From contig NZ_JBBGZW010000001.1 of NCBI RefSeq assembly GCF_037479095.1, positions 1,736,001-1,800,000 of the forward strand: a DNA stretch of 64,000 nt. Direction: 5' to 3'. The position numbers were made by a program, and so were the translations under genes. Positions 52,187 through 54,330 of the stretch are shown here, piece after piece. This stretch comes from Pantoea nemavictus (GTDB lineage Bacteria; Pseudomonadota; Gammaproteobacteria; Enterobacterales; Enterobacteriaceae). The notes beneath the pieces were generated by a model, which was not told where the DNA came from, ran no database searches, and worked only from the letters and a program-made list of their open reading frames with translations. Each line of letters starts with the position of its first letter. Position 1 is the first letter of the stretch.

Positions 52187-52318
52187 ATCAATCCCTTCGT
52201 GTCCGTTAACGGTAAAGCCGGGGCGAGCGCAAGAGGTGAATGGATAAGTAAAGCTGCGGGCGCAGAAAAAAGCGACAGGGAAATGCGCGTGTGGTGAAAA
52301 ATATCGAGGCTGATGGTT

Positions 52319-52356
52319 GTAGCGGCGCGATTTATCGCGCAATAAAGTGCGCCGCT
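52319..52356. repeat. Left part of a GTAGCGGCGC palindrome interrupted by the IS110 element
   Basis: GTAGCGGCGCGATTTATCGC... begins at 52319 and the opposite arm runs to GCGCCGCT at 52356, where the expected final ACA is missing. The missing bases occur at 53566-53568, immediately beyond the right end of the IS element. Joining the two flanks at a shared CT restores a repeat like the copy at 49751-49758. Confidence 0.75.
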
Positions 52357-52370
52357 TGTATCTTGAATGT

Positions 52371-52538
52371 GTTGCTGGTTAGCTACCAGCAACATGAAAC
52401 GGAGGCAGCTTTTTGCGCCGCTTAAGACCCGATCTTGCTTCGTAGCTTTAAGCCCTCCGTTTCTCCTTTCACGCCAGCAACTACTCTGAACGGTAACCAG
52501 AAGCTCTGACTTCGTATGTACAAGGCTAGATGGCGTGA
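52371..52538 (+). ncRNA. Candidate bridge RNA of the IS110 element
   Basis: Three perfect stems lie in order upstream of the recombinase gene: GTTGCTGGT/ACCAGCAAC (52371-52379, 52385-52393; 5-base loop); GAAACGGAGG/CCTCCGTTTC (52396-52405, 52454-52463; about 48-base loop); TCACGCCA/TGGCGTGA (52469-52476, 52531-52538; about 54-base loop). A 5' hairpin followed by two large-loop stems is the known plan of IS621-type bridge RNAs, where the two loops pair with target and donor DNA. Length, about 170 nt, also fits. The RNA itself is inferred, not shown. Confidence 0.68.
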
Positions 52539-52564
52539 TGGTTTAAGTGAAAGGGAGATATCCG

Positions 52565-53548
52565 ATGTTCTGTCTTGGTATTGATGTCAGCAAAAACAAA
52601 CTCGACCTCTGCCTGTTCCCCGGCAACGGCAAAAAGAAAACGAAATCCATCAAAAATCAGGTCGGCGTAGAACGTGACATCTGCGACTGGCTCCAGAAGC
52701 AGAAGTGCCCGCCAGAGCAGGTGATGGTGGTGATGGAAGCGACCAGCGTCTATCACGAAAACGTCGCTTACGGGCTGCACGGGAACACGCCCGTGACGGT
52801 CTGTATCGGCAATCCGCAACGGGTCAGGGAGTTTGCCCGCGGAATGGGTATCCGGACCAAAAATGACGCGGTCGACGCCGGGGTGCTGGCCCGTTACGGC
52901 GAGCTGAAACAGCCCGATGCCTGGGTTCCGCCGCCACCGGAAGTCCGCAAGCTGAAAGACCTGCTGCGTCTGCGTGACGCCATCGTTGAAGATGTGCAGC
53001 GCGCGACGAACAGGCTCGAGAAGGCGAACTCAACCCAGACGGCGGGCGAGGTGACCGACTCGCTTGAAAGAACAAAAAAATCGCATGAAAAGGAGCTGAA
53101 GCGAATAAACGCGCTGATTGACGACCACATGGATAAGAATGATGGTCTGAAAGATGATCTTAAGCTGCTGGAGTCGATAAAAGGTATCGGCGGCGTAGTG
53201 GGAACGACCATGCTGTCGGTGCTGCGTACGTGCCAGTTCCGCAATGCGGGTCAGGTAGCGGCGTGGCTGGGCGTGGTGCCGGTCGAGAAGACGTCAGGCA
53301 GTTCGGTGAGAGGGCTGGCCCGGATGTCGAAAACCGGTCCCGCCGACGTGAGAGCGAAGCTGTATATGGCCGCGATAGTAGCGGCAAGGTGGAATCGCCC
53401 CGTAAGAGCGCTGTATGAAAGGCTGATGGCGAAGGGCAAGCCAGCCAAAGTGGCGCTGGGAGCGGTGATGCGCAAACTGGTCCATCTCTGCTTCGGTGTG
53501 CTTAAAACACGAGAGCCGTGGAACGAAAACTACGTAGCTACCGCTTGA
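52565..53548 (+). CDS. IS110-family DEDD recombinase (transposase)
   Basis: A 327-residue protein with an N-terminal RuvC-like DEDD domain and C-terminal Transposase_20 domain. The acidic tetrad is intact: Asp7 (GIDVSKNKLD), Glu58 (VVMEATSVYHE), Asp101 and Asp104 (KNDAVDAGVLARY). A Lys/Glu-rich coiled coil (about 165-205) leads to the helix-hairpin-helix segment LLESIKGIGGVVG and the SG motif (EKTSGSS, Ser244) that should be the nucleophile. ATG at 52565 has GGGAG upstream; a GTG six codons earlier is less likely. No frameshift is seen, so it may be active. Confidence 0.95.
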   Translation: MFCLGIDVSKNKLDLCLFPGNGKKKTKSIKNQVGVERDICDWLQKQKCPPEQVMVVMEATSVYHENVAYGLHGNTPVTVCIGNPQRVREFARGMGIRTKNDAVDAGVLARYGELKQPDAWVPPPPEVRKLKDLLRLRDAIVEDVQRATNRLEKANSTQTAGEVTDSLERTKKSHEKELKRINALIDDHMDKNDGLKDDLKLLESIKGIGGVVGTTMLSVLRTCQFRNAGQVAAWLGVVPVEKTSGSSVRGLARMSKTGPADVRAKLYMAAIVAARWNRPVRALYERLMAKGKPAKVALGAVMRKLVHLCFGVLKTREPWNENYVATA

Positions 53549-53571
53549 CGTTCAAGACGGTAGCTACAGCC

Positions 53572-54330
53572 TTAACAGAGTTCCAGATGAACTTCGTGCT
53601 GTTCAATCACTTTCAGCACGCTGGCCGGCGGGCTTTGATCGGTATACATGTAATCAATCAGGCTCATATTGCCGAGGTTAACCATCGCATTACGGCCGAA
53701 CTTCGAGTGATCCACCACCAGCATCACGCAGCGCGAGTTTTCGATAATCGCGCGTTTGGTGCGCACTTCGTGATAGTCAAACTCCAGCAGCGAACCGTCC
53801 ATATCGATGCCGCTGATACCGAGAATGCCGTAATCAAGCCGGAACTGCGAGATGAAGTCCAGCGTCGCTTCGCCCATGATGCCGCCATCGCGCGTGCGTA
53901 CTTCACCACCGGCGATGATCACGCGAAAATCCGGTTTCGCCATCAACAGAATCGCCACGTTGAGGTTGTTGGTGACCACGCGCAGATTGTTGTGATTAAG
54001 CAGCGCGTGCGCCACCGCTTCCGGCGTGGTGCCGATATCGATAAACAGCGTGGCGCCATCCGGAATCTGGCTCGCCACACGCTCGGCGATGCGCGCTTTC
54101 TCCGCTGACCACATCATCTTACGATCCTGCCAGGCGGTGTTCTCGGAACTGGACGGCAACGCCGCCCCGCCGTGATGGCGCATAATTTTATTCTGATCGG
54201 CCAGGTCGTTGAGATCGCGCCGAATGGTTTGCGGGCTGACCTCAAAGTGCTCTACCAGCTCTTCGGTACTGACATATCCCTGACGCCGGACCAGATCGAT
54301 AATGGCGTCATGACGTTGCGTCTGCTTCAC
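53572..54330 (-). CDS. glpR: GlpR, glycerol-3-phosphate regulon repressor
   Basis: A 252-residue DeoR-family repressor, the E. coli length. The N-terminal helix-turn-helix reads GYVSTEELVEHFEVSPQTIRRDLNDLADQNKI; the C-terminal sugar-phosphate sensor domain contains IGTTPEAVAHAL and GDGS-type segments. It represses glp genes until glycerol-3-phosphate is bound; three operator-like sites lie before glpD. Last gene of glpE-glpG-glpR; the IS110 element ends 7 bp beyond its stop without damaging it. Confidence 0.97.
   Translation of the reverse strand: MKQTQRHDAIIDLVRRQGYVSTEELVEHFEVSPQTIRRDLNDLADQNKIMRHHGGAALPSSSENTAWQDRKMMWSAEKARIAERVASQIPDGATLFIDIGTTPEAVAHALLNHNNLRVVTNNLNVAILLMAKPDFRVIIAGGEVRTRDGGIMGEATLDFISQFRLDYGILGISGIDMDGSLLEFDYHEVRTKRAIIENSRCVMLVVDHSKFGRNAMVNLGNMSLIDYMYTDQSPPASVLKVIEQHEVHLELC

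Follow-up and report, generated by a model that had tools for sequence, protein, structure and literature searches.

The window, by which we mean the whole 64-kb stretch of Pantoea nemavictus DNA that was analysed, carries on its plus strand an IS110-group element of 1209 bp (52357-53565, one core CT being counted at the right end). To judge from the open reading frames, it is flanked by two minus-strand genes, one resembling glgP and the other glpR. The target core CT lies at 52355-52356 and the right CT at 53564-53565. A recombinase gene (52565-53548, plus strand) encodes a protein of 327 aa with DEDD and Tnp domains, leaving 208 non-coding bases upstream of the reading frame and 17 downstream (53549-53565) within the element. 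Both Pfam IS110 domains (PF01548 and PF02371) are present, residues 3-320 align with the structures of IS621 and ISCro4, and D7, E58, D101, D104 and S244 are kept, motif-aligned to D11, E60, D102, D105 and S241, the residues described for IS621. The first-pass annotation had placed three stems upstream of an intact DEDD recombinase gene, and both the inverted repeats and the 327-aa frame are indeed found there.

The P. nemavictus genome (5.19 Mb in two contigs) contains 10 copies of the element with DNA identities of 99-100%, and the left and right boundaries are identical in all 10. Each copy shows the CT core with no further target duplication, and uninterrupted empty sites were found for three of the five copies tested. 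These come from a second genome of the same species, G486, in which no left end of the element was found: of five joined flank pairs, three align with it along their full 200 bases at 98-99%, while for the remaining two there is a match to 69 bases on one side and none at all, respectively. With the copies nearly identical, no left end in G486 and an empty state there at three of the five sites tested, transposition is, to judge from these comparisons, recent. An empty site at the place of the window element itself was considered and rejected, as G486 has no such palindrome there; the other sites were used instead. That place in G486 (contig C3 near 87746, L143) is occupied by another palindrome, GGTCGCCATTCATGGCGACC, which belongs to the class used as target by a second IS110 type described below. 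The right-end palindrome also occurs alone, with no element, at G000:C1:3108330-3108362 (L050; G000 is the P. nemavictus genome) and G486:C12:90588-90620 (L154), where it may be either an old remnant or a related repeat.

Two further IS110 types reside in the same genome. The second is present in four copies (L051-L054; G000:C1:1715-2638, 1567280-1568203, 3260013-3260936 and 3427901-3428824), each inserted after a GGTCGCC...GGCGACC palindrome, and its guide GGCGACCCC agrees with the left flank at 8/9 positions (tested on L051). The third is a single copy (G000:C1:377025-377954, L055), also with an 8/9 match between guide and left flank. A protein scan of the genome contigs returned in addition one distant locus, which was left out of the analysis. 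Among 5426 E. coli genomes none has a place covering 80% of the window element; a partial match occurs in 297.

Architecture and covariation of the predicted bridge RNA

The non-coding left end is predicted to specify a bridge RNA (52370-52563, plus strand) whose 5' end would lie near 52371, downstream of a promoter-like site at the circle junction. Model R1 and covariation, both described below, support the assignment. Three stem-loops follow one another on this strand, each seen as an inverted repeat and supported by covariation: a 5' stem-loop (52370-52394; stem 52370-52379/52385-52394, 10 bp with 5 nt between the arms), a target-binding stem-loop (52396-52463; stem 52396-52405/52454-52463, 10 bp with 48 nt) and a donor-binding stem-loop (52469-52538; stem 52469-52476/52531-52538, 8 bp with 54 nt). 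The first-pass annotation had given stems of 9, 10 and 8 bp, of which the second and third stand and the first is longer by a pair; its description of a small first loop and of two others of about 50 bases holds. Predicted folds of 52364-52564 and of 52370-52546 are each more stable than 200/200 dinucleotide shuffles, with z values of -3.3 and -4.0, respectively. A search of the window with Rfam 15 gave nothing at the gathering threshold.

Covariation was evaluated in a set of 19 left ends (MAFFT alignment A1), for which RNAalifold returns three stem-loops with compensatory changes in 19 of 38 predicted pairs. We scored 36 named stem pairs, mostly taken from the RNAalifold prediction, and found two-sided changes that preserve pairing in 22 of them and in 65 cells, as compared with means of 10.4 pairs and 20.7 cells in shuffled controls and with 5-9 pairs and 7-22 cells in slid versions; these counts were matched by none of 500 shuffles. 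Pairing is retained in 90.7% of the cells of the 36 named pairs, versus 83.3% (shuffled) and 36-44% (slid). The number of further pair types does not rise above the shuffles, 88/500 of which equal it. In alignment A1 the 5' stem of G000, G029, G041 and G163 is one column off, so that this helix is undercounted.

A covariance model, R1, was built from 14 of the 19 left ends, those of the more distant relatives, excluding G000, G029, G041, G081 and the Erwinia sequence. It matches 52357-52563 with 181.8 bits, the sole match up to an E value of 10 on both strands of the 64-kb window. When applied to 22 further loci R1 finds 14, five of these with more than 160 bits; the eight loci with no match all belong to more distant elements. 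The compensatory changes and the model match, together with the agreement of both loops with target and donor that is described below, argue for the reading as an IS621-type bridge RNA that had been proposed from the stems and the gene order. At two loci, L117 (G046:C2) and L128 (G052:C27), bridge RNAs scoring 189 and 165 bits are accompanied in the protein search by no more than a short recombinase fragment nearby, and the sequence preceding the element is alike in both.

The inverted-repeat listing and the alignment point to one more pairing. The start of the ribosome-binding region, GTGAAAGG (52547-52554, plus strand), is complementary to 52465-52472 at the start of the donor stem, with 8/8 pairs in 16 of the 17 aligned sequences that have letters there. 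Variation in this pairing is by wobble only and hence does not amount to proof by covariation; it is possible that folding of the bridge RNA and translation of the recombinase are mutually exclusive.

Guides, targets and the circle junction

Loop 1 contains a left target guide, TGCGCCGCT (52414-52422, plus strand), that is identical at 9/9 positions to left target plus core, and a right target guide, GTAG (52442-52445, plus strand), the complement of CTAC, so that the loop accounts for the target TGCGCCG-CT-AC over 9/9 positions on the left and 4/4 on the right, core included. The left guide rests on the flanks of the copies and on a test across elements, and the right guide on a comparison of right ends. 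In all 10 copies the left flank reads TGCGCCGCT and the right flank CTAC. The target is one arm of a REP-like palindrome, half of which lies at 52321-52356 (an inverted repeat, 83%) and ends in the left target at 52348-52356.

Loop 2 similarly contains ACGGTA at 52490 and TACAAG at 52519, and the joined ends of the element read ACGGTAG-CT-TGTATC. The left donor guide ACGGTAACC (52490-52498, plus strand) agrees at 7/9 positions with the left donor ACGGTAGCT (53557-53565), and the right donor guide TACAAG (52519-52524, plus strand) is complementary at 6/6 positions to the CTTGTA of the circle junction; both matches were obtained by reading alone. The target GCGCCG-CT-ACA and the junction GGTAG-CT-TGT named in the first-pass annotation are thus both present, and loop segments complementary to target and donor, which it had anticipated, were found.

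Joining the ends also places a -10-like TATCTT (52359-52364, plus strand) at a distance of 17 nt from a -35-like TTGACG (53545-53550, plus strand), which overlaps the recombinase stop codon. The resulting TTGACG-17-TATCTT agrees with the sigma-70 consensus at 9/12 positions, a match of sequence only, and would predict an RNA start at 52371, some 7 nt after the -10 element. In the inserted form there is no promoter-like site between 52200 and 53700 (0.7 are expected by chance per 1.5 kb). Junctions could be built for 15 of 16 elements, from right-end motifs set by hand, the left end of the skipped one not being readable; 11 of them share the position of the promoter-like site, in the other four the best site lies 7 nt further left with the -10 spanning the core, and all score 8-10/12. 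The junction site agrees with the reconstitution of a promoter on excision described in the accessible text of PMC11208160.

In the test across elements, left and right ends of 30 elements were taken from loci with a protein match; 28 left ends could be read, giving 23 distinct loops. Left out were L093, whose left end is truncated by the end of its contig, the two elements G167 and G244, for which no left end was found, and other distant or partial loci. The left target matches its own loop with a mean best score of 8.26/9, compared with 5.65 for the loops of other elements, and none of 20,000 permutations equals the mean for own pairs. The own guide matches at 9/9 positions in eleven elements, at 8 in eight, at 7 in three (G439, G378 and G033) and at 6 in one (G248); these last four of 23 are the weak matches (7/9 or less), and in G033 and G248 the best match is away from the guide position. 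Mismatched pairs reach 8 or 9 in 17/506 cases, in part through shared guides, and the 23 elements are not all independent.

On the right side the two bases that follow the core are those expected from the guide in 11/11 elements with an assigned right end (of 19), and these comprise four types, CTAC, CTCA, CTGA and CTGT. Right ends were assigned by eye, choosing the match that carries the left donor sequence. Four of the 19 elements gave no right-end match; G032, G007 and Halv gave loose-motif matches that lack the donor sequence and are followed by bases at odds with the guides, and were counted as not assigned. The right flank of G029, CTAC, was seen at its copies and stands outside this count. 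Because the targets differ widely while the guide follows the flank, the comparison is indicative of natural reprogramming, as already reported in the accessible portions of PMC11208160 and PMC11187229.

REP-like arms and a one-base guide difference

Empty arms of the palindrome are abundant in the P. nemavictus genome, the 11-mers TGCGCCGCTAC (T-type) and CGCGCCGCTAC (C-type, CGCGCCG-CT-AC) occurring 113 and 114 times, respectively, compared with 14 and 45 for reversed-pattern controls. Insertions are nonetheless T-type in 10/10 cases despite the equally common C-type arms (hypergeometric probability 0.0012). In G029, a relative from the same genus, the guide is CGCGCCGCT and all 13 copies read, from 20 fetched loci of which 13 have a readable left end, lie in CGCGCCG-CT. 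Because 568 of the 621 empty arms in G029 are C-type and 53 are T-type, these sites alone prove nothing about the choice of arm (hypergeometric probability 0.32 for 13 C-type sites). Two more members of the genus have C-type sites, G059 at 6/6 loci read (of nine matches) and G041 in its single copy. Every copy read sits in the repeat arm that carries its own guide base. Sister elements within the one genus differ by a single guide base (T or C at the first left-guide position). We consider it a tentative proposition, somewhat short of even odds, that these elements co-evolve with the palindromic repeats of the host.

Two observations on individual relatives may be added. In G029 many copies match recombinase residues 236-327 and some show a short N-terminal piece alone in the protein search. 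Bridge-RNA-only, internally deleted derivatives were considered as an explanation and rejected in favor of assembly gaps: N is flagged in 13/13 loci with a readable left end, and a run of 100 N is present in the four that were read fully. In L056 (G041:C3) the recombinase stop codon is separated from the right end by about 200 bases that contain palindromic repeats, which suggests that repeats have moved into this element.

Rival readings and relation to known systems

The boundaries, RNA structure, covariation, guide-target and guide-donor matches, target use and empty sites can be read directly from the genomes compared, and on this basis we put at about 95% the probability that the left end of this IS110-group insertion sequence specifies a bridge RNA of the IS621 type, with a DEDD/serine recombinase after it. 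The suggestion that the stems are accidental, or an ordinary terminator, draws on the fact that short inverted repeats are common, nine being listed in 351 bases. We attach practically no weight to it in view of the fold statistics (z -4.0), the match to R1 and the covariation, by which chance stems are already refuted, and no terminator-like site was found on the plus strand of 52200-53700. Also very improbable, in our judgment, is an account in which the palindromic repeat is recognized by the recombinase protein itself, the RNA-like structure serving as a leader or a translation control. We know of no guide RNAs in the IS3, IS4, IS256 and IS5 families. Targeting of REP sequences is reported for these families as well, with protein recognition of the palindrome suggested, in the accessible text of PMC1525189, and the 3' region of the RNA considered here can pair with the ribosome-binding region. 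Recognition by protein does not, however, sit well with a loop sequence that varies together with the flank in a set of 23 distinct elements, with relatives of the same genus whose guides differ by one base and that sit in correspondingly different sites, or with the use of T arms by 10/10 copies when C arms are just as common.

Slightly less improbable, and still unlikely, is that a formerly guided element is now inactive with the RNA persisting as a relic. The genus does hold elements with a recombinase fragment only, and activity of the present element is a prediction from its sequence. Against this, the ten copies share 99-100% DNA and 96-100% protein identity, all with an open 333-codon frame; the catalytic-motif residues are kept; and the lack of a left end in G486 together with the empty sites there speaks for recent transposition.

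Under the preferred reading, a bridge RNA acting with the recombinase, excision would join the ends at the CT core and so create the promoter-like site, from which RNA would start near 52371. Loop 1 would pair with one arm of the host REP-like palindrome, TGCGCCG-CT-AC, and loop 2 with ACGGTAG-CT-TGTA, the sequence of the joined ends; strand exchange by the recombinase would take place next to CT in target and donor. Expression, promoter use, RNA binding, strand exchange and recombination may be expected by analogy with the published IS621 work; for RNA-programmed recombination, what we can put forward is the natural agreement of guide and target.

RNA-guided recombination by IS621-type bridge RNAs was first described in 2024, and its mechanism is published (accessible text of PMC11208160 and PMC11208158). 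As far as that text goes, IS621 of E. coli (PDB 8wt6) resembles the window element in having the RNA upstream of the recombinase, a 5' stem-loop with target and donor loops, target guides of 9 nt (left) and 4 nt (right), a CT core, a REP target and a junction promoter (here promoter-like). It differs in its diverged protein (phmmer E 1.4e-50) and in guide and target, the natural IS621 target being ATCAGGCCTAC in place of TGCGCCG-CT-AC. ISCro4 (PDB 9t56), compared by protein only, has a homologous recombinase (E 6.7e-51). Elements from Pantoea (L139), Erwinia (L142), Klebsiella (L138), Hafnia (L140) and Arsenophonus (L141), as well as G029, G041 and G059, share the RNA architecture and the donor loop; their target guides differ, most following their own flanks. 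The seekRNA elements of the IS1111 group likewise have a DEDD recombinase guided by RNA from a non-coding end, which according to the accessible text of PMC11187229 is a long region downstream of the gene, with subterminal inverted repeats (11-13 bp in this group); in the window element the long non-coding region precedes the gene, with a right end of 17 nt.

The kind of system is thus already known, and this element adds another example. The novelty within the lineage implied by the first-pass annotation is weaker than supposed: relatives in Pantoea and other Enterobacterales already bear the annotation 'IS110 family transposase', in a few cases 'RNA-guided', and the mechanism has been published. 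In a literature search whose scope took in few subscription papers, no printed description of an IS110-family bridge RNA in Pantoea was found. What is modestly new is that guides differ by one base in step with the repeat arm occupied. The locus offers a clean example of a bridge-RNA element that moved recently, is present 10 times and has observed empty sites. If the proposed co-evolution with host repeats is correct, a bridge RNA would discriminate between single bases in nature, and drift of the guide would let an element settle in the repeat set of a new host. Sister elements with guides that differ by one base, together with about 110 copies of each arm within one genome, make a natural test of guide specificity and of the way in which such elements follow the repeats of their host.
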